NCBI RefSeq assembly: GCF_000448565.1 | Contig: NZ_CM002128.1 | Location: 950,960 to 988,561, forward strand | Reading direction: 5' to 3' | From: Streptococcus sp. HSISM1 | GTDB lineage: Bacteria > Bacillota > Bacilli > Lactobacillales > Streptococcaceae | DNA: 37,602 nt | Shown here: one piece after another, positions 4,188 through 36,744 of the stretch | How the letters are laid out: each line of letters begins with the position of its first letter | Position numbering within the stretch: position 1 is the stretch's first letter | Notes under the pieces: generated by a model | What the model was told of the DNA's origin: nothing | Seen by the model: the letters and a program-made list of their open reading frames with translations, nothing else | Database searches by the model: none | Position numbers and translations under genes: made by a program

Positions 4188-4212
4188 AAAAATACATTTT
4201 AAGGAGAAAACC

Positions 4213-5232: not shown

Positions 5233-5236
5233 ATGC

Positions 5237-8834: not shown

Positions 8835-8869
8835 AGCAAAAATCCCACATTCAAAAAAGATGTGGGATT
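8835..8869 (-). terminator. Terminator after the recJ-linked small gene
   Basis: Minus strand: AATCCCACAT and ATGTGGGATT form a 10-bp stem with a 9-base loop, followed by a T-rich tract (TTTTGCTTTT). It ends the transcript of the minus-strand gene that stops at 8888. Confidence 0.8.
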
Positions 8870-8887: not shown

Positions 8888-9483
8888 TTACTTCTCTTCT
8901 AACAATTCATTGTACTGGATTTTCATATCACCTAAGTTTTTCAGGGAATATCGGGAGCTTCCATTTTTGAACCAGGTGCCAAGAATGTATTGTTCGGCGA
9001 CCTTCTTACTTTGTATTTTCAACCAAGCACGGTCTTTGCCGTAGGTGGCAAGCTGCTCAAGGAGTTGCTGGTCTTTGTAGCTTGTCTCATTGATTGTCAG
9101 ATAGAGGTCACTTTGGTAAAAAATCTTTTTAGAAGCCTTATATTCAAATATCAGATTAACTGAGGTACTTTCATCTAATTTGTATTTGTACAGATAGAAC
9201 CAATCTGCAGTCCCTCTAAACATAGTAACAGCTAGATGCTCCTTTCCACCAACGATTTTATCAGAATAGGGAAAAGTCTGAAATCCTTCATCTTCCTTAC
9301 AAGGAGCTTCACTTCCGATTGTTTGAGTGTAGGACTTGACAATCATATTTCTCATCATTCCACCATTTTCAGAGTAAACGATCTCTTCCATGGGGTTTTT
9401 GAGACTCAGGTAGATTCCCAACCAATAAAGAGCAACAAGCAGGAAGGGGCTGAGCCAGAGGAATTTTTTTAGGTGTTTTTCAT
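8888..9483 (-). pseudogene. Small membrane-anchored protein of unknown function, single-base frameshift near its start
   Basis: The open frame holds 177 residues from a TTG at 9421, but the natural start is the ATG at 9481-9483, which overlaps the recJ stop (ATGA). From that ATG the frame closes after four codons (MKNT). Adding one A to the A5 run (9476-9480) gives a 198-residue protein starting MKKHLKKFLWLSPFLL, a typical basic-plus-hydrophobic signal anchor, followed by an extracellular region. The body is polar, with many Tyr/Lys/Ser and no motif I recognise. It is probably translationally coupled to recJ and ends at a good terminator. Whether the missing base is real or an assembly error is open; four other genes in the window show the same defect. 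Confidence 0.7.
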
Positions 9484-11705
9484 GAGGCCTGTCCTGTCAG
9501 ATAGTCGTAGATTTCACGAACCGTTCCAAGGGCCATCAACTCCTGCTCTTTCACCGTTTGTTTGAGGTTTTGGTAGACGCTGCTTTCTGCGATTTCCCGT
9601 TTTTCTGCTTCTTTATTAACCTTCATGATGCCATTTTCAATGGTCACGAAGCCCAACTCTTGGAAGATCTGGATCATTTTGACCAAGAGGATCTGCTGGA
9701 TCTTGAGATAGGCCGCTAGGTCTTTGAGTTTGTAGCGGACATCAAACTCTGGGTACTGATAGATGGTTTTATAGAGTTTGGCATACTGGTCCCTGCTACC
9801 GTAGCCTGTCAGATAGTAGGCTTTGGCGATTTCATTTTTGAAATACACAGCTTGGAAATCATACTCTTGAAAGATGTGACGCAGTTGCTCTATATCCTCA
9901 GGGATATTTCCAACCACTACAGCATTTGCTCCTGCTAGATCAGGCAGTTCTTTGGTAAAATCAAGTACAGGAACACCTGCGGGGAGGCTGGCATTTTTGG
10001 AGCGGATATTAAAGAGCTGGACGCCGTCCACACGCGCATCGACCAGCAAGAGCTGAAGTGTCGTTTGGCCATTCCATTGGTTTACCGACAATTGAACGGC
10101 TAGCTCTAAGTCTTGCGCCTGGGCAAACTCTGCCTCTAAGCTTCCCAAGCCAAAGGCAACCACCTCAAAGGTCGCATCTTCCTGAGAAATTTTGAGTTTC
10201 AAGTGAGTATTGCCAGCTCCCATTGAGCGCGCCCCTTCTACCTTGAAATTACGAACCAGAAAGACGGGCTTTTTATTGTCCATGCCAAAAGGACTCAAGC
10301 GCTCAAAGCTTTTCAGAGTCTCAAGCGTTAGTTCAGTTAAATGCAGTTCCTCATCGATGGCTAAGCTGGACTTGCTACTGAGATCAATCTCTTGCTCTGC
10401 AATGTAATCCGTAAGAGCCTGAGATAGGGCAGGAAGTTGGTCCACTTCGAGCGTCATCCCTGCTGCACCGGCATGTCCTCCAAAGGCGACAAAGAGCGTC
10501 CGGTGAGGATCGAGGGCCTCAAAAATATTGACCGACTCAGGACTTCGAGCGCTTCCTTTAGCCCGCCCATCTTCGATGCTTAAAACAACAACTGGCTGAT
10601 GAAGCTCTTCCAATAGACGGCCGGCGACAATACCAAGGACCCCTGGATTCCAGCCTTCTTTTGCCAAGACCTGGGCGGACAAGCTTGGGTCGACCATGGT
10701 TTTGGCTTCATCGTAGATGCTTTGGACAATCTCTTTTCGTTCTTCATTCTTCTGATGAATCATGAGGGCAATCTCGTGCGCCTCTTCATCGTCAAATCCT
10801 GTCAGGAGTTCAATGGCCGGATTGGGATCATCGAGGCGGCCAAGGGCATTGAGACGAGGAGCAATCTGAAAACCAACCGTTTCTTCATTGACATCCTCCG
10901 GACGAATCCCTGCGATCTCCAAGAGCTCCTGCAAACCCATGCGCTGGGTATGTTGGAGAACACCCAGACCGTATTTGACCAGGATCCGATTCTCATCTGT
11001 CAGGCTGACCATGTCAGCAATGGTCCCAATGGCTACCAGGTCTAAGAGATCGACTGGTACTTCCTCTAGGAGGGCACAGGCCAACTTAAAAGCCACACCA
11101 CATCCTGCTAGATAATGGAAGGGATAATCCGCATCTGGATGCTCCGGATGGATGATCGCATAAGCATCGGGCAAAACCTCTGGCATCGAGTGATGGTCCG
11201 TCACGATAACATCGACTCCCATCGCTTGAGCCATGGCAATGGCTTGATTACCGGCGACCCCATTGTCCACTGTAACAATCAGGGAAATGCCTTGCTGCTC
11301 GATAAAGTACTTGTAGACACTCTCATTGGGACCATAGCCGTCTGTGAAGCGGTTGGGGAGGTAGACTTGCACCTCTGCCCCCATCTGCTCCAAGGTTTCC
11401 TTCATAATAGAGGCCGAAGTCATCCCGTCCGCGTCATAGTCTCCGTAGATCAGGATCTGCTCATAATCTTCAATGGCCCGTCGGATGCGCTCCACTGCTT
11501 TCTCCATATCGTGGAGCAAATAAGGGTCGTGTAGCTTCTCCAGTTTGGGTTCTAAAAAGTCTTCTAAATCCTCTTTGGTCTGAATGCCACGCTCATACAG
11601 CAAGGTTGCTACGGACGCTTCCAGGCCTGCTTTTTTAGCAAGGGCTAAAAAGGCCTCATCTGCACTTGGCGAAGCTAACTGCCAATCGTATTTTGAAGTG
11701 ATCAT
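9480..11705 (-). CDS. recJ: Single-stranded-DNA-specific 5'-3' exonuclease RecJ
   Basis: A 741-residue RecJ of the DHH phosphoesterase superfamily, active in recombination and mismatch or base-excision repair. Motifs in order: YGDYDADG (residues 87-94), VTVDNGV with D147, DHH at 170-172, GCGVAFKL after residue 200, the DHHA1 motif FGGHAGAAGMTLE near residue 407, then an OB-fold region and the C-terminal extension typical of Firmicutes RecJ. The ATG at 11705 lies 12 bases after GAGGAG, slightly long. Its stop overlaps the start of the downstream small membrane-protein gene. Confidence 0.95.
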   Translation of the reverse strand: MITSKYDWQLASPSADEAFLALAKKAGLEASVATLLYERGIQTKEDLEDFLEPKLEKLHDPYLLHDMEKAVERIRRAIEDYEQILIYGDYDADGMTSASIMKETLEQMGAEVQVYLPNRFTDGYGPNESVYKYFIEQQGISLIVTVDNGVAGNQAIAMAQAMGVDVIVTDHHSMPEVLPDAYAIIHPEHPDADYPFHYLAGCGVAFKLACALLEEVPVDLLDLVAIGTIADMVSLTDENRILVKYGLGVLQHTQRMGLQELLEIAGIRPEDVNEETVGFQIAPRLNALGRLDDPNPAIELLTGFDDEEAHEIALMIHQKNEERKEIVQSIYDEAKTMVDPSLSAQVLAKEGWNPGVLGIVAGRLLEELHQPVVVLSIEDGRAKGSARSPESVNIFEALDPHRTLFVAFGGHAGAAGMTLEVDQLPALSQALTDYIAEQEIDLSSKSSLAIDEELHLTELTLETLKSFERLSPFGMDNKKPVFLVRNFKVEGARSMGAGNTHLKLKISQEDATFEVVAFGLGSLEAEFAQAQDLELAVQLSVNQWNGQTTLQLLLVDARVDGVQLFNIRSKNASLPAGVPVLDFTKELPDLAGANAVVVGNIPEDIEQLRHIFQEYDFQAVYFKNEIAKAYYLTGYGSRDQYAKLYKTIYQYPEFDVRYKLKDLAAYLKIQQILLVKMIQIFQELGFVTIENGIMKVNKEAEKREIAESSVYQNLKQTVKEQELMALGTVREIYDYLTGQAS

Positions 11706-11739
11706 CTAGCTTTTGGTCTCCTCTTTTTCTTATCTGAAT

Positions 11740-11748
11740 ATTATATCA
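11740..11748 (-). promoter_or_regulatory. Extended -10 promoter of recJ
   Basis: Minus strand TGATATAAT about 35 bases before the recJ start codon; no clear -35. Confidence 0.65.
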
Positions 11749-11833
11749 TGAAAGGCGAAAATGGCGGGAAATAAAGGGTCGAGCTGTACAAAAATCAAAA
11801 TCAACATTTTTCGTTATTTTTGTTGCATTTAAC

Positions 11834-11861
11834 TTGACTTATCATACTAAAAGAATATAAT
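11834..11861 (+). promoter_or_regulatory. Sigma-A promoter of the surface adhesin gene
   Basis: TTGACT (11834-11839), a 16-base spacer, then TATAAT (11856-11861). If used, it gives an unusually long untranslated leader of about 335 bases. Confidence 0.65.
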
Positions 11862-12035
11862 AATGATGATAATAATCTTTTAAATATGCAATGGGATGAT
11901 TATTCTGTTAAAATTTGTAATGTTTATTATCATATTACATTATAAGGCATGGTATCTCTTCTGTTTTTATTTCTACTAACTGTTGTTAGAAACCTAATGA
12001 ACCTCTATTTGGACTGGCTATAACCAAATACAGTA

Positions 12036-12069
12036 GTTTCGTACCTTTTTCACAGCAACGGTACGAAAC
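12036..12069 (+). promoter_or_regulatory. Inverted repeat in the adhesin leader
   Basis: GTTTCGTACC and GGTACGAAAC form a perfect 10-bp inverted repeat around a 14-base T- and A-rich centre. No T-run follows, so it is not an ordinary terminator. It could be a protein operator or an RNA hairpin that affects expression of the adhesin. Confidence 0.5.
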
Positions 12070-12203
12070 CATTTCTCTACCAACATTTTAAAAAAAGCAA
12101 CTGGTTCCAAGGAGCAAAAATCAGAAGCTTTTTAGTTTTAGGATATATCACTATATAGAAAAAATACCGAAAAGATCGTGCAAAAGAAAGGAAATGAGGC
12201 CAA

Positions 12204-15200
12204 TTGAAATCTCTTTATAAAAAGATAGTTGCATTTGTAGCTATCATCGGTGTGGTAGCCTTAGGCTTGTCTGTCATCAAACCCGTCAGCGCCGCCACTG
12301 TAACACCTACTGTCACCAATTTAAAGGCCCAAGCAAGTGGACAAAAGGTTACCTTTTCATTTGACTGGGATTTAACTGGTAAATCAGTTAAAGACGGTGA
12401 TACATTTACTATTGACGCTCCAGAAGGTGTTAATATCACTGAAATTGCAACTCAATCACTCCAAGCAAATGGAGCTGAAGTCGCAACCATTTCGATGACA
12501 AACAAAAAGATTACTTTCACCTTTAAAAAAGCAATCGAATCCATGAACCAAAACGTTAAGGGTGGTTTCTCATACAAAGCAGAATGGGATAGCACACCAG
12601 GAAATCCTGGCAACAAAACTGCCACTTCTAAGGTTGGTTCCGAATCCGTTGTCATCACACGTCCTGATGGTCCTGGCGTATTTGAATCAGTTTTAAATAA
12701 ATACAACCTTACAGGTGACTATGTAGCTAAGACATTCAAATTAGATGTATCTGAAAACTATGCTTGGATGAATGTTGGAGATGACTACTATCTAACAAAA
12801 TGGTTCATCCGTATCAACGGGGATGGTAAGAAACAAGCCATCACAAACCCTGTTGTGTCAGATAAAATCCAAGCTCCAGCAGTCGATTACTCAAAAATCA
12901 CTTTTGCTCCTGCTGCAAACCACGCTGCAAATGAATTCTTTGTGGGAACTTACTTGAAACCTTCCTTTACTTTGAGAAAAGGTGGACAAGTGGTTGCTTC
13001 TGGTTGGGACTTCTGGAAACATGTGAAATTCGATGCGGACGGCAATGGATTTACTGTGAATTTATCAGATGTCAGTGATGTCTTTAAAACAGCATCTAGC
13101 GATGAATTGATCGTTGAATACCAAACATTAATTCCTAAGACAACCATCCGTGTTGATAACAACGCAACATTGACAGCTGATGAAATCACAACACCTCAAA
13201 CTGACCCAGCATTCTGGAACAACACTGAATTGAAATTCTGGGTGAGCGGTGACAAAACTATCACTGTTCAAAAAGAATGGGTTGGTGATGAGGAAGTTGA
13301 CCGTAAAGATATTACGGTTCAATTATTGGCCAATGGTCAAAAATTAGATGGAATGACTAAGACCTTGACAAAGGCTTCTGGTTGGACTGCTGAATTTTCT
13401 AAATTACCAGGGATTAAAGACGGACAACCGATTGTTTATTCAGTAGAAGAAACGAATACACCTGATGGTTATACTTCAAAAGTTGAACCAATCAATGAGT
13501 CGAATGTTATCAAAGTTGTAAACACTTCAAACAAACCAAAAGTTACTGAAACTACTGCAAATCTTGTTGTAAAAAAAGCTTTCGAAGTAGCCGGTGATCA
13601 GGAACATACAAAACTTCCGATTACAGAAGGTCAATTCGAATTTGTCTTGAAAGACGAAAACAAAAAAGTAGTCGAAACTGCCAAGAACCAAGCAGACGGC
13701 ACTGTTAACTTTAAGTCACTGACTTTCAATAAAGAAGGTACTCATACTTATACCATCACTGAAAACAAGGGTACGGATGCTAATGTCAACTATAGTACAC
13801 AAAGCATCACGGCTACTGTCGATGTGAAGAAAACTGACGACAAACTGGTCGCTACTGTCACTTACTCAGGTGGAGATGGTGAACAAAAAAATACGATCAC
13901 CAATACTCAAAACAAACCAAAAGTTTCAAATGCTAAGGTGACCTTAAACCTTAAAAAAGCATTTGAAGGTGGGGAACTCAAGGGCGATGACTTTGAATTT
14001 GTTGCAAAAGATGCAAACGATCAAGTTGTTGGTACAGCTAAGAACCAAAAAAATGGTTCGATTACTTTTGATAACATCACTGTAGACAAAGCAGGTACAT
14101 TCAAATATACCATCACTGAAACAAAAGGTACGGACAAAACCATTACCTACAGTGATAAAACTATCACGGCTACCGTTGTAGTGGTTGAAAAAGACAATGC
14201 CTTGGTTGTAGAACAAACCAGCTACTCTGATGGTCAAACTGACACAGATACGTTTACCAACAAAAAAGAAGTTCCTAAAACAGAAAGTACAAAAGCTACT
14301 CTTCAAGTGAAAAAACTTCTTAAAGAAGGTGAAACAACCTTACCGTTGACAGACGATCAATTTGAATTTGTCTTGAAAGAAGGAAACAATACCCTTGAAA
14401 CTGCCAAGAACAAGGCAAATGGTACTGTAACCTTTAAGGAACTTTCTTATACTGCAGAAGGAACCCACACCTACACCATTACCGAAAATAAAGGTACGGA
14501 TGCTTCTATCAACTATAGCACACAAAGCATCACGGCTACTGTTGAGGTGAAGAAAGTAAACGACAAACTCGTCGCTACTGTCACTTACTCAGGTGGAGAT
14601 ACTGAGAAAGGTGATACGTTTACAAATACGAAAACACCTCCGACACCTCCAACGCCTGTTCCTCCAACAGTGAAACCAACGTCAGCTCAATTCAAAGCTA
14701 AAAAAGTATTGGCGATCAATGGTTCAAGCGATCGTACATTGAAAGCGAATGAGTATACTTTCCTTCTCAAGGATCAAAATGGTACGCTCGTTGATACTAA
14801 GACAAATGGTGAGAATGGTGATATTCTCTTCGATCCAGTAAGCTTTAATGAAGCTGGTACGTTCACCTACACAATTGTTGAACAAAAACCAGCTACACCA
14901 GAATCAGCGATCACTTATGATGAATCTGTTCATACTGTAACAGTGACTGTCACAAAGGATGCAACTGGACAATTGAATGCGGATGTGCAATACGACGGTA
15001 AGAAAGATACTCCTACTTTTACCAACACGTATACACCTCCGACACCTCCAACTCCAAGTGAAAAACAAATTACCACAAGCAAGATTTTAGAAGGTCGTGA
15101 CCTTCAAGGTGGTGAATTTAGCTTTAACCTCTTGGACGAAAATGGAACTGTTCTTCAAACAAAACAAAATGCTGCTGATGGCACGGTGACATTTGATGCG

Positions 15201-16013
15201 ATCGCCTACACGGAAGCGATGATTGGTACTCATAAATATACCATTAAAGAAGTCGTACCAGCTGATCAGGCAAATATCCAATATGACGAAGGTCAAGTGG
15301 ATGTCACAGTTACCGTCACAAAAGATGAAGCGGCAAACTCTATCCAAGCAGTTGTTTCATACGGTGCGAAGAAAACCTTTATCAATAAGGTCATCCCACC
15401 AACTCCACCAACAGTGAATAATCCTGAATTGAAACTTTATACCCTTAAGGTTCGTAAAGTGGATGAAAAGGGTGATTACCTTGCCGGTGCAGTATTTGGA
15501 CTCTTTGAAGCAGATGGTGTCACACCTGTTGCAAACCCATATGGACAAGGCCAAGCGCAAGCGATTTCTGGACAAGATGGACTTGCAAGCTTTGTTGGAT
15601 TTGAAGCTAAAGAGTATGTCATCAAAGAGCTCTCTGCTCCTAGTGGTTATCAACTTTCAGATACAGCCATCAAGGTTTCTGCAAGTGACTTTGCTTCAGC
15701 TACAAACCTTGTCGTTGATAAAGGAAACGTGGTGAATAAACTTCTTCCACCTCCACCATCAACAGATATTCCAAATATACCAACACCAAGTAATAGCAAA
15801 CCTAAAACTCCATCACCAAATGGAGATAAGCCTAAGCCTAGTGACAAACCTAAATCTAGTGAAACTCCTAAATCTAGTGACAAGCCTAAAGAAAGTAAAC
15901 GATCCCTTCCTTCAACAGGAACGGAAGATCATTTAGGACTTCTTGTAACTGGTTTGACATTCATCGCTACAGCTATTGCTTCTATGACACTTAAGAAGAA
16001 GGAAGACTTCTAA
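12204..16013 (+). CDS. LPSTG-anchored surface adhesin with tandem pilin-type isopeptide domains
   Basis: A 1269-residue cell-wall protein. In order: signal peptide (about residues 1-30, cleavage after VSA); an Ig-like N-terminal adhesin region of the Cna/SdrG type (about 31-345); a Cna-B domain (about 352-445, VQKEWVGD ... YSVEETNTPDGY); five streptococcal pilin isopeptide-linkage (Spy0128/FctA-like) repeats at about 448, 573, 690, 823 and 950; a second Cna-B domain (about 1074-1177, LKVRKVDEKG ... YVIKELSAPSGY); a Pro/Lys/Ser wall-spanning region; and LPSTG at 1235-1239 with membrane segment and basic tail for sortase A. Strand-A Lys, TITE Glu and C-terminal Asn (FTNT) predict intramolecular isopeptide bonds. 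No pilus sortase or second pilin is nearby, so it probably acts as a single anchored fibre; the ligand is unknown. The start is TTG, since the nearby ATG at 12194 is out of frame. Confidence 0.93.
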   Translation: MKSLYKKIVAFVAIIGVVALGLSVIKPVSAATVTPTVTNLKAQASGQKVTFSFDWDLTGKSVKDGDTFTIDAPEGVNITEIATQSLQANGAEVATISMTNKKITFTFKKAIESMNQNVKGGFSYKAEWDSTPGNPGNKTATSKVGSESVVITRPDGPGVFESVLNKYNLTGDYVAKTFKLDVSENYAWMNVGDDYYLTKWFIRINGDGKKQAITNPVVSDKIQAPAVDYSKITFAPAANHAANEFFVGTYLKPSFTLRKGGQVVASGWDFWKHVKFDADGNGFTVNLSDVSDVFKTASSDELIVEYQTLIPKTTIRVDNNATLTADEITTPQTDPAFWNNTELKFWVSGDKTITVQKEWVGDEEVDRKDITVQLLANGQKLDGMTKTLTKASGWTAEFSKLPGIKDGQPIVYSVEETNTPDGYTSKVEPINESNVIKVVNTSNKPKVTETTANLVVKKAFEVAGDQEHTKLPITEGQFEFVLKDENKKVVETAKNQADGTVNFKSLTFNKEGTHTYTITENKGTDANVNYSTQSITATVDVKKTDDKLVATVTYSGGDGEQKNTITNTQNKPKVSNAKVTLNLKKAFEGGELKGDDFEFVAKDANDQVVGTAKNQKNGSITFDNITVDKAGTFKYTITETKGTDKTITYSDKTITATVVVVEKDNALVVEQTSYSDGQTDTDTFTNKKEVPKTESTKATLQVKKLLKEGETTLPLTDDQFEFVLKEGNNTLETAKNKANGTVTFKELSYTAEGTHTYTITENKGTDASINYSTQSITATVEVKKVNDKLVATVTYSGGDTEKGDTFTNTKTPPTPPTPVPPTVKPTSAQFKAKKVLAINGSSDRTLKANEYTFLLKDQNGTLVDTKTNGENGDILFDPVSFNEAGTFTYTIVEQKPATPESAITYDESVHTVTVTVTKDATGQLNADVQYDGKKDTPTFTNTYTPPTPPTPSEKQITTSKILEGRDLQGGEFSFNLLDENGTVLQTKQNAADGTVTFDAIAYTEAMIGTHKYTIKEVVPADQANIQYDEGQVDVTVTVTKDEAANSIQAVVSYGAKKTFINKVIPPTPPTVNNPELKLYTLKVRKVDEKGDYLAGAVFGLFEADGVTPVANPYGQGQAQAISGQDGLASFVGFEAKEYVIKELSAPSGYQLSDTAIKVSASDFASATNLVVDKGNVVNKLLPPPPSTDIPNIPTPSNSKPKTPSPNGDKPKPSDKPKSSETPKSSDKPKESKRSLPSTGTEDHLGLLVTGLTFIATAIASMTLKKKEDF
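13545..15390 (+). repeat. Five tandem pilin-domain repeats within the adhesin gene
   Basis: Units of about 350-390 bases start near 13545, 13920, 14275, 14670 and 15054. Units 1 and 3 are strikingly alike at DNA level in their second halves, for example around 13801-13880 and 14521-14600, including identical GGTACGGATGCT and ACACAAAGCATCACGGCTACTG blocks split by few changes. This points to recent duplication or gene conversion and makes the gene prone to length change and to short-read assembly collapse. Confidence 0.8.
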
Positions 16014-16021
16014 GCAACATG

Positions 16022-16053
16022 AAAGATCTAGTCAAACACGACTAGATCTTTTT
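16022..16053 (+). terminator. Terminator of the adhesin gene
   Basis: A 12-bp perfect stem AAAGATCTAGTC/GACTAGATCTTT (16022-16033 and 16040-16051) with a 6-base loop and a T-run. The A-rich left arm may also work for the convergent minus-strand gene ending at 16069. Confidence 0.9.
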
Positions 16054-16068
16054 CTTGTATTCGGTTAC

Positions 16069-16832
16069 TCAATTCTGAATATTTTGATCTTCATAAAAAA
16101 CAACTTTCCCATCTTTAACCTTGAATGAGTAACTGATGGAATCAGCATAACTGCCTTTGGAATAGTAGAAATCATAGGCACCATCCGGTAGTTTGCTAGC
16201 GTCTAATCTTTTTGCAGCTGCTTTTAAGTCTTTTTCCTTAACGGATACACCATCCTTTATATAAATGGTCATAGTGATTAATTCTTGATCGATTAAGGTT
16301 TGAAAAGGGATTTGATAGTAACCAGCAAAGTCCTTTTTCCCTTCTTTGAGATTTTGACTTGCGATACTATCTAGAATTTGCTCCTTCTCATCACGGTTGG
16401 AGTTAGATAAAAACCAAAGAAATTAATAGGAAGACCTAGAGATTGCTTCTTTAATTGACTCTCAATTTCCTTCTCCTTCTTTTGGACAGATTGCTGCTTC
16501 AAGTACGCTTCCTTATACTCTGGAAAATGGTCGCTAGTTGTATCTGTCCAATCATTATGAAACACCGTATCCGTTTCTAATGTCACTGTTTGTCCATCAT
16601 AGGTTTTCTCAGAGTAGGTATAAGACACATGATAAGTTGGGATTTCCAAAGCAGTCCAATCCAGTTTGTTTATGGCCACATCCCCATGCAGACCAACCTT
16701 AGCAAGCTCACTGCTGACTACTTCCTTCGCCTTTTTATAATCACTCGGTTTCATGATCTTACAACTGGAAAGAAACAGGCAACATAGAATAAGTGGAATT
16801 CCTGCGAATAGTTTGAAATAGTTGAGCTTCAT
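16069..16832 (-). pseudogene. Lipoprotein of unknown function, split by a single-base frameshift
   Basis: The first part (16371-16832, 153 residues) starts MKLNYFKLFAGIP and has a signal peptide with lipobox LSSC, lipidated Cys at residue 24. The second part is the 67-residue frame ending at 16069. Adding one T (coding strand) to the T5 run at 16409-16413 joins them into a 254-residue lipoprotein: the junction becomes FGFLSNSNRDEKEQILDSI, and the frame stays open to the stop at 16069, ending with a YSFKVKDGKVVFYED-type segment. The body contains a charged coiled segment (about residues 115-135). I do not recognise the family. It sits downstream of another surface protein on the same strand, 34 bases away, probably in one operon. 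Confidence 0.7.
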
Positions 16833-16866
16833 AGCCTGACCTCCTTGTTAAATCCGACCTAATCGA

Positions 16867-18258
16867 TTAATTATTTACATCATATGGGAACATTTTTTTA
16901 ATATCTTCTTTCATCTTTTTATTAGGAATTTTCTCTAAATCCATATATTTGAAGAATTCTTCATCATTTTGAACGACATGAACCTTCCCATCTTTAGTAT
17001 ACTCAGCTGGTATGGTCAGATTAGCGAAGGACTGACCAAAATCTCTAGAGACCACGTAGTTCTGTACTTCATACAAGCGTCTCAGCAATGAGAACTCTGT
17101 AGTATCCTTACTTTGATTTAATTCCTTTTTAAAATATTGGAAAAATTCTTTTTTATTATTCGCAAGATGTTCTTGACCATCTTTTGAAAGCTCTGCTGGT
17201 ATCTTATGATACTGTAGGACATCATACCATCCACCTGAACGCTGCTCTGGAACTTTATAAAGCAGTTCCAAAAATGAAATATCAAAGTTGAGATCTTCTG
17301 GTCCGAGAAAGTATAGATAGGCATTCTCCCCTTTTGTCGATTCTTCACCCCATTTTACAGTAGTTGGATTATTCCCTTTGCTTAAAATAGAATATACTTT
17401 CGGATAGAGTGTTTTCAATGGGATGTCCTTAGTATAATCACTACGATCTGTAAATAACAAACGTGAATGTTGGAGCTGCAATTGTCCTCCTTCAAAATTG
17501 TATTCAAATGGATGTAAGTCTTTGTCGCTTTCTCGATTTTCTTTTTGAACTTGTTCATAACCTTTGCCTGATGAGGTTTTCCAAGCGAACTTTCCATCCT
17601 TAACATTCATTAACCCTATACGAGATTGATACTCTGTTTGTACATAGATATTTCCAGGTTCTACAATATATTTGTCTTTCTTATCGACAAGAATATCAAT
17701 CGGAATGTATGTTTCTCCATCATCTGTATCCAACAACATAGAAGAAACTTTAACAGATAAGGGGATATAATTCTTATCCATATCTCGTACTATCTTAAAA
17801 ACATCATATGTTTTCTTCACTAAGCGCTTGTCCTTGGTATCATAGACATCAATGAGCCAGTACTCTCCCTTTTGTGCTTTATTTGTAGTTAGGTAAGGAA
17901 CTTGATTACCACGAATATAATATTGAAAATAGAGACGTGGGTCAGATTTTAATTTGTAACTTTCTTGTGCAATGTACCGTTCACTATTTCCACCATTTAT
18001 AAACCATTCTACTTTAACTTTTGAATTATACGAATATGCTTCCAGCGCCTCATCCACTTCCTCTTTATTATCCCATTGAATGGCTACTGCTTTCCCACCT
18101 GCAATAAATTGGGAGTCAACTATGTTTGGACGAGGTTTCCAAGTTACAAATTGTGATATATCACGCTTATGAATTTCATACCGGATGAACCAGCCTCCTG
18201 CCAAGGTAACGAGTAATACAAATATCCAAAACTTGATTGATTTAAAAACCTTCTTCAT
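16867..18258 (-). CDS. Membrane-anchored extracellular protein of unknown function
   Basis: 463 residues, not recognised. The start chosen is the ATG at 18258, which follows an AGGAGG site by 7 bases; an upstream in-frame ATG at 18285 lacks one. A basic N-terminus (MKKVFKSIKFW) leads into one membrane segment (about residues 9-26), and the rest is hydrophilic and presumably extracellular, rich in Lys, Asp and Tyr. Two segments resemble each other (IPAELSKDGQEHLANNKKEFFQYF and, near the C-terminus, a PAEYTKDGKVHVVQNDEEFFKY stretch), suggesting an internal repeat of about 40-100 residues. The gene is clearly more AT-rich than its housekeeping neighbours, which fits horizontal acquisition. It probably shares a transcript with the following lipoprotein. 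Confidence 0.75.
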   Translation of the reverse strand: MKKVFKSIKFWIFVLLVTLAGGWFIRYEIHKRDISQFVTWKPRPNIVDSQFIAGGKAVAIQWDNKEEVDEALEAYSYNSKVKVEWFINGGNSERYIAQESYKLKSDPRLYFQYYIRGNQVPYLTTNKAQKGEYWLIDVYDTKDKRLVKKTYDVFKIVRDMDKNYIPLSVKVSSMLLDTDDGETYIPIDILVDKKDKYIVEPGNIYVQTEYQSRIGLMNVKDGKFAWKTSSGKGYEQVQKENRESDKDLHPFEYNFEGGQLQLQHSRLLFTDRSDYTKDIPLKTLYPKVYSILSKGNNPTTVKWGEESTKGENAYLYFLGPEDLNFDISFLELLYKVPEQRSGGWYDVLQYHKIPAELSKDGQEHLANNKKEFFQYFKKELNQSKDTTEFSLLRRLYEVQNYVVSRDFGQSFANLTIPAEYTKDGKVHVVQNDEEFFKYMDLEKIPNKKMKEDIKKMFPYDVNN

Positions 18259-18323
18259 TCCATCTCCTCCTAATCTCTTCCTCATTTTACCATCAATCCC
18301 CCCTTTTGTCAGTCAAATAGATA

Positions 18324-18500
18324 AGGCTGGGACAAAAGTCCTAGCCTCTCAATTGTTTTTGGATTGTCGAGCAAGACGCAGTGGTTGAGTGGGCTCTACT
18401 ACGCTGATTTCATCAGCTTTTACAGCCCTACTCAACTGTGCGGAGGTGGGACGACGAAATCGAATTCTAACGAATTACCGATTTCTGTCCCACTCTCTTT
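18324..18500. repeat. 177-bp structured intergenic repeat, full copy 1
   Basis: Nearly identical along its whole 177 bases to 36568-36744 (I see only a couple of substitutions, such as GGTTGAG/GGCTGAG and TTTCATC/TTTTATC). It begins AGGCTGGGACAAAAGTCCT, itself a hairpin, and ends CTGTCCCACTCTCTTT. GTTGAGTGGGCT and AGCCCTACTCAAC pair as a long stem around the small hairpin GCTGA/TCAGC, and GGGACA near one end pairs with TGTCCC near the other. Its last bases give the stop codon of the minus-strand GNAT gene. It lies between that gene and the surface protein promoter region. Confidence 0.9.
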
Positions 18501-18902
18501 ATTTCATATAGATCATCCCTGTACAGGCTTGCTCTGAAAGTTCAACAAAGCCCAGGGATTGGTAAAAGGCTAGATTTTTCTCGCTACGTTCAGTGGCAAG
18601 GAGCCGTTGATAGACATTTGGGAAGGTCGCTAAAGCCTCTTTTAAGAGTTTCTTTCCAATGCCTTGGCGCTGGTGATCTGGTCTTACCAAAAGGTCCTGC
18701 ACAAAAATAACCGAGTGGCCATCACCTACCAAGCGAATGTAGGCGACGAGCTCTTTCTCATCATAGACGGCCAACTGCCAGAGACTAGCTTTGACAGCTT
18801 GTTCCAGCATAGATGGGTTGTTGGTATAATTGGTCCAACCCACCGAGGTGTAGAGTGCGAGTAGGTCTGTCATCGCTGGAATTTCTTTTTATAATCTAAC
18901 AT
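18499..18902 (-). pseudogene. GNAT-family N-acetyltransferase, frameshifted at codon 6
   Basis: The open frame from 18873 (124 residues) has no ribosome binding site. A strong site (GGAG, 5-base spacing) stands before an ATG at 18900-18902, whose frame closes after ten codons (MLDYKKKFQR). Adding one A to the A5 run (18886-18890) gives MLDYKKEIPAMTDLL, the normal GNAT N-terminus, and a 134-residue protein. The acetyl-CoA loop is VRPDHQRQGIGKKLL, followed by the usual FYQSLGF motif. The substrate is unknown. The gene starts right at the end of the methyltransferase gene, so they form one operon. Downstream ATG use could still yield a shortened enzyme lacking the first beta strand. Confidence 0.8.
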
Positions 18903-18903
18903 C

Positions 18904-19614
18904 TTAACTCCTTTTTAACCGATAGTGCTGGAAGAAGGCGATATCTCGGTAAGGGGACTCTTGGCAAACAGATAGCTCCATCTTGAGCATAGACTCTCGC
19001 CAGCCTTCTTGGCCCTTGAAGCGATTGTCCTGCAAGGCATAAAAGACACGGATCCCTTGGTAGTCCTGAACTTCGAGGGCTAGATCGTCTACTGCTCTAT
19101 CTAGATCATAGGCCTGTGCCAAGCCCATGGAGTGGGTTTCCAGGTCTTGACCGGCTAAGAGATCAAGCGCCTTCTGAGTATCATTTTCAAAGACGACGGT
19201 CTGCAGGACGCGGCCAACCTCATTGTGCTTGACGATAGAGAGCAGGCCTCCTGGTTTCAAGAGACGAGTGAATGCCTTGAGAACCACCTTGCGATCCTCT
19301 ACATACTCCAAGACATTGTGACAGAGGATGACATCAAAACTGGCATCTTCAAGACTTGCTAACTGGTCCAGACTCCCGACGAGTTGCTGGTAGGGATGGT
19401 CCTGGACCCGCAAGGCCACCATTTCCTCATTAGGCTCCACAGCTAGGACTTGATTTTCTTGCGCTAGATGGTTGGCTACAAGGCCAAAACCACTCCCGAA
19501 ATCAAGCACCCGTTTTCCCTTGATGTCCTGTAATTGTTCAAAAAGGATATCATAATAGATCTGTCCCCAGGGTTGCTGGAGGTTTTCTAAATAGGCTTGA
19601 ATATTCACGGCCAT
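18904..19614 (-). CDS. Class I SAM-dependent methyltransferase
   Basis: A 236-residue cytosolic methyltransferase. The SAM motif I is VLDFGSGFG (residues 36-44), an acidic residue follows in LAVEPNEEM (motif II, E60), and FDVILCHNVLEYVED (about residues 94-108) with LLKPGGLLSIV are motifs of the UbiE/Methyltransf_11 group. Length is normal. The substrate cannot be told from sequence. It lies 10 bases after the SDR gene and directly before the GNAT gene, in a dense minus-strand operon running from miaA. Confidence 0.85.
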   Translation of the reverse strand: MAVNIQAYLENLQQPWGQIYYDILFEQLQDIKGKRVLDFGSGFGLVANHLAQENQVLAVEPNEEMVALRVQDHPYQQLVGSLDQLASLEDASFDVILCHNVLEYVEDRKVVLKAFTRLLKPGGLLSIVKHNEVGRVLQTVVFENDTQKALDLLAGQDLETHSMGLAQAYDLDRAVDDLALEVQDYQGIRVFYALQDNRFKGQEGWRESMLKMELSVCQESPYRDIAFFQHYRLKRS

Positions 19615-19624
19615 CGATCTCCTC

Positions 19625-20380
19625 CTATTTGAAATTGAACATCTTGCTGGCTAGCTTGTCTGAGATGCGTGGGAAAAGGGTATAGAGCTTGTGAGTTAGG
19701 TTCAAGAGCCAAGGCAAATTGAGCTCGCGTTTTGCTTTTCCAAAGTTCTTCACAATCTTCTTAGCCACAAAGTCTGGTTCCAAAATGTAGCGGTCCACAG
19801 CCTTGACATAGCTTCCGTCTGGGTCTGCCTGGTCAAAGAAAGTGGTCCGGATGGGGCCTGGATTGACCGTCGTCACATGGACACCAAAGGGCATCAGTTC
19901 CAAGCGCAGGGCATTGGAGAAACCAATGGCCGCAAACTTGGTGGCCGAATAAAGGCTGGATTTGGCAGTTGCGACGAGACCCGCCATGCTGACGATGTTG
20001 ACGATGTGCCCCTTGCCTGCTTCCTTCATGTGCGCACCCATCAAGCGTGAGAGCTGCATGAGGGCAAAGGTATTGACCTCAAACATCTCCCGCACCTGCT
20101 GGTCAGAAATGCGATCAAACTCTTCAAAGATCCCATAGCCTGCATTGTTGACCAAGACATCGATCTGTCCATAGCACTGATAGAGCTCTTCTACCAAATC
20201 TTGGACGGCTGAGGTATCAGTGATATCGATCCCGATGCATTCGGCTTGAGGATGACTGGCATAGAGCTTTTCCAGTTTTTCTTGATTTCTACCTAGGAGA
20301 ATCAGCCGATCTTCAGGGAGGAGCTTGACCATTTCTTGGGCCAAGCCTCCACTTGCTCCTGTTATGAGAATGGTTCGCAT
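19625..20380 (-). CDS. Short-chain dehydrogenase/reductase (DltE-like)
   Basis: A 251-residue classical SDR. The NAD(P)-binding motif TGASGGLA is at residues 7-14, NNAG at 78-81, and the catalytic residues are S131, Y144 and K148 (YSATK). The ATG at 20380 is chosen because it follows a GGAG site by 7 bases and yields the standard N-terminus MRTILITGASGG; the open frame upstream to 20524 lies inside the RNase Z gene. It begins one base after the RNase Z stop. The substrate is unknown; similar streptococcal proteins are often labelled DltE without evidence. Confidence 0.9.
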   Translation of the reverse strand: MRTILITGASGGLAQEMVKLLPEDRLILLGRNQEKLEKLYASHPQAECIGIDITDTSAVQDLVEELYQCYGQIDVLVNNAGYGIFEEFDRISDQQVREMFEVNTFALMQLSRLMGAHMKEAGKGHIVNIVSMAGLVATAKSSLYSATKFAAIGFSNALRLELMPFGVHVTTVNPGPIRTTFFDQADPDGSYVKAVDRYILEPDFVAKKIVKNFGKAKRELNLPWLLNLTHKLYTLFPRISDKLASKMFNFK

Positions 20381-20381
20381 C

Positions 20382-21311
20382 TTAGATCTCCACTTCTTCC
20401 AAATCTTTGACGACATAGACATTTTCAAAAATGCTGGACGCATCCTTGCGCAATTGGCTGATGTCTTTTGACAAGAAGCGAGCACTGATGTGGTTGAGAA
20501 GAAGGCGCTTCGCTCCAGCTTCACGCGCTACTTCTGCTGCCTGCATATTGGTCGAGTGACCGTGTTTCTTAGCAATCTTCTCATCGCCCTTACCATAGGT
20601 GGACTCATGCACGAGGACATCTGCATTGACTCCAAGGCGGACACTGGCATCCGTCTTTCTGGTATCTCCAAGGATCGTGATAATCTTACCAGGTCGAGGA
20701 GCTGAAATATAATCAGCAGCAATGATCTTGGTGCCATCTTCCAGGGTGACATCTTGTCCATTTTTAACCTGACCAAAGAGCGGTCCAAATGGAACGCCCG
20801 CTGCCTTCAACTTGTCTGCATCGAGTGTTCCTTCAAGGTCCTTCTGCATGATCCGGTAACCGACACAGAAAATGGTGTGGTCCAAAGCTTCCGCATAAAC
20901 CGTGAATTTATCAGTTTCTAAAATCTTACCCAGAGAATGTTCATCGAATTCATGAAAATGGATGCGGTAAGGCAGACGAGAGCCTGATACGCGAAGACTA
21001 GTCATCACAAAGGATTTGATCCCTACTGGTCCATAGATATCCAGATCCGTCTGCTCTTCATTGGCCTGAAAGGCCCGACTAGAGAGGAAACCTGGCAAAC
21101 CAAAAATATGATCTCCGTGTAGGTGAGTAATAAAGATCTTGCTAACCTTTCGCGGACGAATGGTCGTTTCTAAAATTTGATTCTGTGTCGCTTCGCCACA
21201 ATCAAAGAGCCAGACTTCATTGATCTCGTCCAGCAATTTGAGCGCTAGGCTCGATACATTACGGGCTTTTGAGGGTTGCCCAGCTCCCGTTCCTAAAAAT
21301 TGAATGTCCAT
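20382..21311 (-). CDS. rnz: Ribonuclease Z
   Basis: A 309-residue metallo-beta-lactamase-fold endonuclease (ElaC type) that trims the 3' trailers of tRNA precursors. The zinc motif HLHGDH is at residues 63-68; the later ligands appear in [19 protein letters not shown] and HSTNMQAA ... [10 protein letters not shown]. It begins [14 protein letters not shown], the usual family N-terminus. It sits between an unknown conserved gene (3 bases away) and the SDR gene (1 base), in a common streptococcal order with miaA and hflX. Confidence 0.95.
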
Positions 21312-21314
21312 TGT

Positions 21315-21944
21315 CTACTTTCTATCTATATAAATCATGGCCGTCCGGTTCTCTGAACGGAAAGAAAGGTTGCCTGGGTAGGCTTGCGCTAACTCGAGGA
21401 GCTCTTCTTGGTTATATCCTGACAGTTTCAAGCGTCCATCTTCCAAGGTCATCAAGTCAGTCAGAGCTGAGAGGGCTTCTGTTTTTGTGACCACTTCTGG
21501 GCCGGCCTCTTGCAGACAGATCTTGCCATCTTTTTCAAAGACCAAACAATGTGGAAAGATCTCTGCGACTTCAAATAAAATGGCAGGGGTGATATCTTCT
21601 GCTGGATGTTCAGCAAAGACACAGGCTAGCTCTTCATTTACGTAAGCCAAGCCATAAGACTTACCTGACAAGTTGAGGCGAATAAAGGGCTTTCGTTCAT
21701 CAAAGCTTTGTTGAACTGTGAATAAGTCAAATGCCCGGCTCAGGTCCAAGAAATAATCCATGGCCTCCTTGGGGCTCTTCTTTTGGTAGAGCTCTGCGAA
21801 ATAGGCGTTGATCACACTTGGGGGAGGCGTAATCACACGAAGACGCAATTCCTCAGGGATCGTGCTTAAAAGATTGGTCAGATAGACCCGATCGAGGCTG
21901 GTATAGCCTCCATATTTTATTGCTAAATCAACGTAATCCGTCAT
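21315..21944 (-). CDS. Conserved protein of unknown function between hflX and rnz
   Basis: 209 residues, from the ATG at 21944 (GGAAG site 6 bases upstream); the longer open frame to 22037 runs inside hflX. It begins MTDYVDLAIKYGGYTSLDRV. The protein is soluble and acidic, with no membrane segment and no enzyme motif that I recognise. Its start overlaps the end of hflX by 17 bases, suggesting translational coupling, and rnz is upstream of the next gene by only 3 bases. Conserved position among RNA-processing genes hints at a housekeeping role, which is inference. Confidence 0.75.
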   Translation of the reverse strand: MTDYVDLAIKYGGYTSLDRVYLTNLLSTIPEELRLRVITPPPSVINAYFAELYQKKSPKEAMDYFLDLSRAFDLFTVQQSFDERKPFIRLNLSGKSYGLAYVNEELACVFAEHPAEDITPAILFEVAEIFPHCLVFEKDGKICLQEAGPEVVTKTEALSALTDLMTLEDGRLKLSGYNQEELLELAQAYPGNLSFRSENRTAMIYIDRK

Positions 21945-23174
21945 AAAATTCTTCCAACTTCCACTTATTTTTCTCTGCGATATAGCCTTGAATGACCTCG
22001 ACATCCTCTTCAAATTCGCGCTGGTCAATGATCGCAACCATTTCTAAATCATGTGTCCGATAAGATTTTGAAAAGGGAACGCGAATGGTAAAGGGAACAA
22101 AGAGTTCTCTCAGTTTTTCTAGAAGCAAAGCCTGGAGATCTTCACGGGCTGTCTCAGAGCGTGCTGAAATCAAGCTAAAAGGTGTCTGGGTTGGTGTAAA
22201 GTCTGCTACTTTATCTGCTTTGTTGTAAAGCGTCAAACGAGGGATCTCCAACATATCCAGGTCCTTCATGATCGAAAGCACGGTCTTTTCATGCTCTTCA
22301 TGATTGGGATCAGACGCATCGATGACATGGACCAGAAGGTCTACATTCTTACTTTCTTCCAAGGTCGACTTAAAGCTCGATACCAGCTCTGTTGGTAGAT
22401 CTTGGATAAAGCCAACCGTATCGGTCAGCGTCACTTGCAGATTGCCTGTTAGATGGATGCTCTTGGTTGTGGCATCCAAGGTCGCAAAGAGTTCATCGGC
22501 TTCATACTGACTCTTACTGGTCAGCTGATTCATAATGGTCGACTTTCCTGCATTGGTATAGCCGATCAAACCAATCTTGAAGACAGGTGATTCCAAGCGT
22601 TTTTCACGAAGGGTTTCCCGGTTTTTTCAACTGCCTTGAGCTGGCGCTCGATATCGGTGATTTGATTGCGAACGCTCCGGCGGTTCAACTCCAACTGACT
22701 TTCCCCTGGACCACGAGAACCAATTCCCCCAGCTTGACGGCTGAGCATGATTCCTTGACCGACAAGGCGTGGCAAGAGGTATTTGAGCTGGGCCAAGTGT
22801 ACCTGCAACTTGCCTTCATGACTCCTAGCCCGCATAGCAAAGATATCTAAAATCAGCTGCATCCGGTCAATAACCTTGACCCCAAGGATTTCTTCTAAGT
22901 TGACATTTTGACGGGGGGTCAGGCGATTATTGACCACCACGGTCGTAATCTCATCTGCTTCGACCATTTGAGCGATTTCTTCTAGTTTTCCTGAGCCGAC
23001 AAAGGTCTTGGTGTCGTATTTCTCCCGCTTTTGTGTATAGGAACCCCGGACATCTCCACCGGCTGTTTTAGCCAGGCTCGCCAACTCCTCCATAGACATA
23101 TCAAAATTGTCCATGCCTTGAAGTTCCACACCGACCAAAAGGATGCGTTCTTGTTTCTTTTCTGTTTCAATCAT
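21928..23174 (-). pseudogene. hflX: Ribosome-associated GTPase HflX, interrupted by a single-base deletion
   Basis: HflX is a GTPase that splits stalled or hibernating 70S ribosomes. The N-terminal half (from the ATG at 23174) contains GSGKLEEI and the HflX signature GGIGSRGPGESQLELNRR, then runs out of frame after QLKAVEK. The C-terminal half (from about 22596) has the G domain: GYTNAGKST (G1), DTVGF (G3), and LYNKADKV (G4). Adding one A to the A6 run (22622-22627) restores VEKNRETLREKRLESPVFK, the expected linker, and a 415-residue protein of normal length. It overlaps miaA by 8 bases. Either an assembly error or a true loss; with four matching cases nearby, error is more likely. Confidence 0.9.
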
Positions 23175-24054
23175 GCTGTAAAAACTCCTTAACATCTGCA
23201 AGAACCTGCTCCTTGAAGTGGGGGGCAGAAATGGCGTAAAATTTAACTTCCATTCGATTTCGAAACCAGGTCAGCTGCCGTTTGGCAAAACGCCGCGTAT
23301 TGCGCTTGAGAATCTCACTAGCTTCCGCAAGGCTCTGTTCTCCCTTAAAGTAAGGAAAGAGTTCCTTGTAGCCAATGCCTTTAGCTGCCTGAACCTCCGG
23401 ATGGTCATCATAGAGCCACCGGGCTTCATCCAGCAAGCCTTCCTCTAGCATGCGATCTACTCGGCGATTGATGCGCTCATAGATCAAGGAACGGTCATCA
23501 TCTAGACAGATGAGATAGGGTTCATAATCGGTCTCTTCGTTTGCGAGGTCCTGCCCAAAATGCGCAATTTCAAGAGCCCGCATGGCCCGACGGCGATTGA
23601 GCTGAGGAATCACAAGTCCTTGCTCCGCTACCCTTTGGTACAAGTCTTCGTCCGACAGCAAGTCCAATTGAGCGCGATAGGCCAGAATCTCTTCATGAGG
23701 AACTTCACCACCTAGATGATAACCTTCGAGCAGACTTTGGATGTAAAGGCCCGTTCCACCAGCAATGATAGGAAGCTTGCCTCGAGCTGTGATATCCTCA
23801 ATCGCAGTCTTAGCTTCTCTTACAAAATCAAAAGCCGAGTAAGACTCGGTCACCTCCCGCACATCGATCAAATGATGAGGAGCTGCAGCTTGCTCTTCTG
23901 GTGTCGCCTTGGCTGTTCCAATATCCAGCTTGCGATAGACTTGCTGGCTATCGCCACTGATAATTTCACCATTGAGGGCTTGCGCCAAATCGATCGCAAG
24001 AGCTGTTTTCCCAACAGCAGTTGGTCCCACAATCACAATTATCTTGGTTTTCAT
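23167..24054 (-). CDS. miaA: tRNA dimethylallyltransferase MiaA
   Basis: A 295-residue enzyme that adds a dimethylallyl group to A37 of tRNAs reading UNN codons. The P-loop GPTAVGKT is at residues 10-17, followed by the family motifs [23 protein letters not shown] and [20 protein letters not shown]-type [12 protein letters not shown] is near the C-terminus. The ATG at 24054 has an AAGGA site 6 bases upstream; a TTG five codons earlier is less likely. It heads the operon with hflX, the unknown gene, rnz, SDR, methyltransferase and GNAT. Confidence 0.95.
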
Positions 24055-24094
24055 CGTTTTTCCTTGCAAAATTCACGTTTTTTCGTTACCATAT

Positions 24095-24103
24095 ATTATA
24101 ACA
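24095..24103 (-). promoter_or_regulatory. Extended -10 promoter of the miaA operon
   Basis: Minus strand TGTTATAAT, a TGn extended -10 about 40 bases before the miaA ATG. The divergent small gene at 24138 must have its promoter in the same AT-rich stretch, but I cannot fix its -10 with confidence. Confidence 0.55.
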
Positions 24104-24137
24104 TAAATATTTAAAGTTCAGAAAAGGAGAAATTCTC

Positions 24138-24308
24138 ATGGCTAAAGGATTTGGTAAAGGTTTTGTTACTGGTGTTGCTGGTACAGTTGCTGCTGTCGCA
24201 GGTGCAGTTTACACATTCAAGAAGAAAGTAATCGAACCAGAAGAACAAAAAGCAGCTTTCATCGAAGAAAACCGCAAAAAAGCAGCACGTCGCCGTGTCT
24301 CACACTAA
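24138..24308 (+). CDS. DUF3042 small protein
   Basis: A 56-residue protein beginning MAKGFGKGFVTGVAGTVAAV, with one hydrophobic Gly/Ala/Val segment (about residues 8-26) and a highly basic tail ending RRRVSH. This is the pattern of the DUF3042 family of Lactobacillales, whose function is not known; a membrane association is likely. The ATG has an AAGGAG site 11 bases upstream, and a very strong terminator follows within 10 bases, so it is monocistronic and probably well expressed. It is divergent from miaA. Confidence 0.85.
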   Translation: MAKGFGKGFVTGVAGTVAAVAGAVYTFKKKVIEPEEQKAAFIEENRKKAARRRVSH

Positions 24309-24314
24309 TCATTC

Positions 24315-24344
24315 AAAAAGCTCCGGGAAACCGGAGCTTTTTTT
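24315..24344 (+). terminator. Terminator of the DUF3042 gene
   Basis: AGCTCCGG/CCGGAGCT stem (8 bp, extended by A-T pairs) around a GAAA tetraloop, followed by seven T. The same core recurs at 24795-24817. Confidence 0.92.
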
Positions 24345-24466
24345 GCTGAAGAAAAAGTCCATTTTGGAAAATTTTCTCTTATTGGTAGGGTTTGTCACGA
24401 TATGCTAACACAAGTAATGCGAAAAGAATTAGAATGATATATATTATGTTTATTCAAACATATACT

Positions 24467-24768
24467 GAAACTTTCCGCCGCGAGAAAAGTGCTAGAAACA
24501 CTATGGTTTCTAGCACTCGGTAGTTTTGAGAGTAAAACAGTTCGGGGAACTGTTTTAGCCTGAGCCCAGAAATTAAAGAGCGAAGAGGTTCAAAACTAAT
24601 TGAACACGGACTGCGGATTGTGTCAAAAAGATAAGTTCTCCTAGAATCGAAAGATTCTGCGTCAAACTTCCTATTTTGACTTTATCCGCAGACGCCCTTT
24701 GTATCTTGATTTAGTCATGGAACTTCGTAGAAGTTCGCTGACGTCCGTACTCACCTAAGGAAAGTTTC
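24467..24768. repeat. BOX-like modular hairpin element, long copy with terminal inverted repeats
   Basis: 302 bases bounded by a perfect 10-base inverted repeat GAAACTTTCC/GGAAAGTTTC. Internal perfect hairpins: 12 bp at 24488-24517 (AGTGCTAGAAAC arm), 10 bp at 24534-24556 (AAAACAGTTC arm), 6 bp AGAATC/GATTCT around a GAAA loop near 24643-24658, and 7 bp GAACTTC/GAAGTTC at about 24720-24736. A long-range pair CTGCGGAT (24611-24618)/ATCCGCAG (24684-24691) encloses part of these. Its right end, inverted, matches the left end of the element at 3122-3253. No open frame fits a transposase, so a MITE- or BOX-like non-autonomous element is the best description. Confidence 0.85.
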
Positions 24769-24786
24769 TATGATGACGTTTGTCTT

Positions 24787-24824
24787 CAATCTAAAAGCCC
24801 CGGGAAACCGGAGCTTTTAGATTG
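24787..24824 (-). terminator. Terminator after the rexBA/DUF4298 operon
   Basis: A 17-base arm pair (CAATCTAAAAGC and GCTTTTAGATTG outside, CCGG inside, one C/A mismatch) around a 4-base loop. Read on the minus strand the inner part ends in TTTTAGATT. It reuses the core of the terminator at 24315-24344. Confidence 0.65.
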
Positions 24825-24829
24825 AAATT

Positions 24830-25146
24830 TCACCGTTCTTTGATCATCTTCGTTGCGATTTCCAAGAGTTCGACTCCCATCTGAAAATGCTCGTCTAATA
24901 AATCATAGACGGCATCTTCGGACAAGACACCACAAGGAAGATCTGCTGGAAAGTCAGCTTGATTGGAAAAGTCCAAATCATCAAAATAGGCTTGACTACT
25001 ATAATAATCCCTCAGTTGGATATAGCTTTCTTGATGCTCTCTTAGCTGATCCACTGCTTTTTGGTTTCTTCCAAAGTTTTGGCATAGTCATTCAAATAAC
25101 CTTCCATTCTTTGGATCCGTTCGATGTTTTCCTGTGCAATTGCCAT
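24830..25146 (-). pseudogene. DUF4298 family protein, single-base frameshift
   Basis: From the ATG at 25146 (GGAG site 6 bases upstream, in the end of rexA) the frame reads MAIAQENIERIQRMEGYLN and stops after 34 codons. Adding one A to the A5 run (25058-25062) continues it as LEETKKAVDQLREHQESY and gives 105 residues ending EIATKMIKER. The two-part helical pattern (N-terminal coiled segment, then a DYY ... D region and a LLDEHFQMG segment) fits DUF4298, of unknown function. The gene begins 3 bases after the rexA stop and is the last of the rexB-rexA operon. See the other four homopolymer frameshifts for the likely cause. Confidence 0.8.
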
Positions 25147-36523: not shown

Positions 36524-36567
36524 GATTTTTAGACAGCATCCGTTTTTCTGTTGATCTAGTACAAAAG

Positions 36568-36744
36568 AGGCTGGGACAAAAGTCCTAGCCTCTCAATTGT
36601 TTTTGGATTGTCGAGCAAGACGCAGTGGCTGAGTGGGCTCTACTACGCTGATTTTATCAGCTTTTACAGCCCTACTCAACTGTGCGGAGGTGGGACGACG
36701 AAATCGAATTCTAACGAATTACCGATTTCTGTCCCACTCTCTTT
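36568..36744. repeat. 177-bp structured intergenic repeat, full copy 2
   Basis: Same orientation, same 177-base length and nearly the same sequence as 18324-18500. It lies just downstream of the minus-strand permease gene (6 bases after its stop) and upstream of the exporter promoter. The stems described for copy 1 are kept. Confidence 0.9.

Follow-up and report, generated by a model that had tools for sequence, protein, structure and literature searches.

The locus raises the question of whether five genes of Streptococcus sp. HSISM1, each of which appears broken at a short homopolymeric run of A or T, are broken in the living cell or only in the assembled sequence. The genes lie within a stretch of 37,602 nucleotides that we analysed as a whole and refer to as the window, and a sequence-only reading had already proposed that each has lost a single base from an A/T run of five or six. 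When the window was checked letter by letter, the five runs (listed with their genes in Table 1) proved to be exactly as that reading had given them, and the ORF layout and the proteins of relatives agree that all five frames are split or shortened there. The N- and C-terminal HflX matches of hflX fall in separate ORFs, i.e. in two frames, and the two pieces of the gene at 16069-16832, neither of which matches NCBIfam or Pfam, are likewise in separate ORFs. The breaks in the tipC, GNAT and DUF4298 genes, located near the gene start, are milder: the next in-frame start of tipC, at 9421, would give 177 aa, compared with 197 aa in the close relative G038, while the frame left is 124 aa in the GNAT gene and 74 aa in the DUF4298 gene, compared with 134 and 105 aa, respectively, in relatives.

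Table 1. Positions in the window of the five interrupted genes and of the other one-base shortfalls private to this assembly (run letters as read in the window)
Feature	Position	Strand	Remarks
TipC-family immunity protein gene (tipC)	8888..9483	-	NCBIfam NF033863, 4.6e-37; frame lost in first codons, run 9476-9480 (T5)
Gene of unknown family	16069..16832	-	Interrupted at run 16409-16413 (A5)
GNAT-family acetyltransferase gene	18499..18902	-	Pfam Acetyltransf_7, 1e-14; break near start, run 18886-18890 (T5)
hflX	21928..23174	-	NCBIfam TIGR03156 in both pieces; two frames at run 22622-22627 (T6)
DUF4298 gene	24830..25146	-	Pfam PF14131, 2e-16; break near start, run 25058-25062 (T5)
Private one-base shortfall	4196..4197	.	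Between main ORFs
Private one-base shortfall	5235..5236	.	Directly after an ORF
Private one-base shortfall	8850..8851	.	Between main ORFs; alignment less certain
Private one-base shortfall	11932..11933	.	Between main ORFs; no long A/T run there

The same genes in close relatives

This assembly (G000) was aligned with three close relatives, G038, G030 and G024, whose identity to it over about 18400-24400 is 96, 95 and 81%, respectively. Comparison with the same genes in relatives had been suggested from the sequence alone as a check, and it shows one extra base, relative to G000, at all five sites in both G038 and G030. G024 has the extra base at three of the five; divergence prevents clean placement of the other two, those in tipC and the DUF4298 gene, and both of these G024 frames are open. 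The alignment block of 6.3 kb with G038 (18250-24529) contains just two gaps, both of them among the five sites. The hflX gene is one open frame in all 29 relative loci compared (the best-scoring 29 of the 58 relatives searched), the gene at 16069-16832 is one frame in all five loci that match both of its pieces (from four genomes, one of which supplied two loci), the GNAT gene encodes 134 residues at each of four matching loci (three genomes), and the DUF4298 gene 101-105 at each of three. Relatives carrying the same interrupted frames, an outcome that the sequence-only reading had set against its own explanation, were looked for, and no break at a corresponding position was found in any relative examined.

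The tipC gene is open in three of its five matching relative loci. The G030 copy shifts frame near residues 75-86, and that of Streptococcus sp. bf_0095 is cut by an in-frame stop near residue 97 (the two broken copies are loci L041 and L100); both copies are open where the tipC gene of the window is broken. The breaks elsewhere in two of five relatives indicate some natural decay of tipC, but not at 9476-9480. Only two matches to the tipC protein are named, those from Streptococcus parasanguinis strain 886_SPAR and Streptococcus sp. bf_0095.

The proposal that a base is missing from an A/T run stands in so far as G000 is one base short of G038 and G030 at all five sites, but at 18887 and 22623 a different base breaks up the run in each of the three close relatives, so that the loss of a base from the same run misdescribes the ancestor there. 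At 9476 the run is interrupted in G038 and uninterrupted in G030. The situation at 18887 and 22623 is consistent with under-calling of a run that a substitution had first lengthened; alternatively, the interrupting base itself may have been lost. Where G038 has an interrupted run with a merged length of 6-8, the G000 run is pure and of full length in 22 cases and one short in seven, compared with 28 and one in the reverse comparison. Among runs with a merged length of 6, 4 of 20 are short, a larger fraction than among plain coding runs of that length (9 of 212; p about 0.017, our Fisher and binomial p-values treating sites as independent), and some of the loss may be of a different kind.

Other features of the window are recorded here in their own right. 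A large ORF at 12204-16013 encodes an LPXTG-anchored, adhesin-like product with five FctA (isopeptide) domain stretches and a SpaA domain. A 180-bp intergenic repeat (36563-36742, with copies at about 18324-18505 and, in part, at 371-452) folds into three strong hairpins (z -5.0 to -10.6 for overlapping pieces) and matches 45 of 59 genomes of the genus, many of which hold at least 14 copies; the best copies are 97-99% identical, even across species, and others are weaker. A search of this repeat against Rfam gave no match at the gathering score, and we know of no function for it. Another dispersed repeat spans some 330 bases (about 24460-24795); sequences 84-92% identical to it occur at several positions in G000, G038, G030 and G024, and at this spot in the window G038 carries only part of it.

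One-base deletions across the assembly

It had been argued that five matching defects are unlikely as independent mutations, and they do exceed chance: within the window G000 has nine private clean one-base deletions, compared with none in G038 and one in G030. The nine comprise the five sites and four further positions between the main ORFs (Table 1). For a wider view, 12 more stretches were added to the window, and gaps were polarised wherever both G038 and G030 aligned with G000 (200,488 bases aligned three ways). One-base gaps with clean flanks were counted, longer or unclean gaps being excluded and two unclear rows dropped; seven of the 20 G000 stretches, being without counterparts, were excluded (L069, L070, L072, L073, L075, L076 and L078), and L060 contributed 0 bases. 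Private clean one-base deletions and insertions number 56 and 9 in G000, 5 and 8 in G038, and 12 and 10 in G030. Of the 13 stretches that yielded data, 12 contain G000 deletions; the same-base run in G038 is exactly one longer at 36 of the 56, and 40 of the 56 leave an A/T run of at least four in G000. One-base gaps of G000 fall at 43 places inside 39 mechanically called G038 ORFs. Private substitutions number 6084, 4470 and 4583 in G000, G038 and G030, which gives 0.0092, 0.0011 and 0.0026 deletions per private substitution. An exact-flank run count over the three genomes, too strict to be useful, points in the same direction (18 of 11,020 common runs differ in length: ten one shorter in G000, two one longer, two private to G038, three private to G030 and one mixed). 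The completeness of G000 is 95.65%, compared with 99-100% in 53 of 58 relatives.

Shortening climbs with the length of the run. For lengths 5, 6, 7 and 8, respectively, G000 falls one base short of G038 at 3 of 678, 9 of 212, 9 of 49 and 3 of 9 coding A/T runs (reverse comparison, G038 shorter: 2/679, 1/175, 0/40 and 1/4), and at 3 of 165, 4 of 91, 12 of 44 and 2 of 6 non-coding runs (reverse: 4/199, 1/102, 1/41 and 2/5). Against G030 the corresponding counts are 4/652, 8/195, 10/49 and 2/7 for coding runs (reverse: 1/645, 1/165, 0/37 and 0/3) and 3/117, 4/52, 7/28 and 1/4 for non-coding runs (reverse: 0/143, 3/59, 0/28 and 2/4). Pooled over lengths 6-8 against G038, 21 of 270 coding runs (reverse 2 of 219) and 18 of 141 non-coding runs (reverse 4 of 148) are shorter. 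Coding and non-coding runs are thus similar at 6-8, while at length 5 the coding fraction is the lower (3/678 versus 3/165). Such slight protection of coding runs of 6-8 fits error and is what selection would forbid.

Not every observation conforms to this pattern. The G000 branch is also the richest in private substitutions, which counts against under-calling; at up to 12 of the 56 sites, comprising interrupted runs and odd cases, the A/T run of G000 is not shorter than the longest G038 run, and some of the 56 deletions lie outside homopolymers (e.g. L064 10845). Total numbers of A/T runs are equal in 400-kb samples of G000 and G038 that were not chosen to be homologous (182 and 182 at length 7).

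Split housekeeping genes

When nine G038 reference proteins were placed on G000, seven were found to lie in two frames, the split falling at residue 309 of 649 in gyrB, 781 of 1178 in smc, 182 of 313 in birA, 88 of 232 in rex and 184 of 415 in hflX, and close to the start in galT (near residue 45 of 490) and in a phosphosugar-mutase-like protein (near 31 of 571). The other two, ftsY and glutathione reductase, are unsplit, so not every gap in or beside an ORF breaks the protein. The gyrB gene is essential, and a search of the G000 genome with GyrB returned no second good copy, only a paralogue about 52-54% identical. This paralogue (G000:C1:488040-489949), probably parE, is also in two frames, towards its C-terminal end. 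Both mutS and mutL are open frames (851 and 682 aa) with no internal stops. Separate from the intact mutS is a MutS-like match with three in-frame TGA codons (G000:C1:1397318-1397962), perhaps a decayed or frame-broken paralogue.

Cause of the interruptions and its consequences

We consider it almost certain that the five interruptions are assembly errors caused by under-calling of A/T homopolymers. This cause, favoured from the outset by the sequence-only reading, is borne out by the excess of deletions (56, against 9 insertions), by a rate that rises with the length of the run both inside and outside genes, by the spread over 12 of 13 stretches, by a split gyrB with no second good copy and by relatives whose frames are open at these sites. 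By such a mechanism the consensus would drop one base from a fraction of the A/T homopolymers that are about six bases long or longer, in genes and intergenic regions alike, and the living strain would carry open frames at the five sites. Under-counting of this kind is familiar in long-read assemblies without accurate polishing. The single contig of 2,334,492 bases suggests long reads, which would have been error-prone and were probably nanopore reads. Homopolymer indels, frameshifts and raised numbers of pseudogenes in long-read assemblies are described in portions of two published reports (PMC9262707; PMC12007338), and the one-base deletions, split genes and lower completeness of G000 resemble what those portions describe; G000 differs in that some of its sites lie in interrupted runs or outside runs.

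One other possible explanation is that the mutations are real, arising in a slippage-mutator strain or by gene decay, and that the living cell, too, carries the broken frames. The deletions are indeed widespread and slippage-like, and tipC at least is able to decay, since two of five relatives have it broken at positions other than that of the window. Such an origin is nevertheless highly improbable, given that gyrB is without an intact copy, that deletions far outnumber insertions, and that coding runs of six are struck like non-coding ones (9/212 and 4/91) and runs of seven nearly so (9/49 and 12/44), selection leaving little trace. A mismatch-repair mutator in particular is rejected because the mutS and mutL frames are open and gyrB is split. 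The sequence-only reading had named programmed transcriptional slippage or phase variation as its alternative, by which full-length proteins would be restored in some transcripts or cells, and it is the case that the breaks sit in A/T runs, as in transcriptional slippage, where such runs adjoin the frame break, and that an immunity gene such as tipC might plausibly vary. According to part of a published account of slippage (PMC1088944), selection against it is evident from runs of nine in a large share of genomes, and shorter runs may slip in some bacteria. The G000 runs, at 5-6 bases, are below nine, the interrupted frames are absent from the relatives examined, and unrelated housekeeping genes, among them gyrB, smc and birA, are struck as well; slippage or phase variation is rejected because the runs are short and the breaks are not common to relatives, and we regard it as the least probable of all the explanations considered.

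It is also conceivable that the five sites are a mixture, one or two being real lesions and the rest errors. The tipC site and the two sites at interrupted runs are the least certain of the five, but all five are private to G000 and match the wider pattern, and we judge a mixture to be very unlikely, if less so than any other alternative to under-calling. That one break, most likely that in tipC, is a real on/off lesion has a slim chance, placed below a mixture and above wholesale real mutation; relatives lose tipC repeatedly through breaks at other positions.

Under-calling in the assembly, then, most likely makes the five broken genes an ordinary artefact, explained by published long-read experience and involving no new biology. 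Extrapolation from 56 private deletions per 200,488 bases would put their number at perhaps several hundred over the 2.33-Mb assembly, and claims of gene loss, pseudogenes or phase variation made from this assembly of Streptococcus sp. HSISM1 are unsafe.
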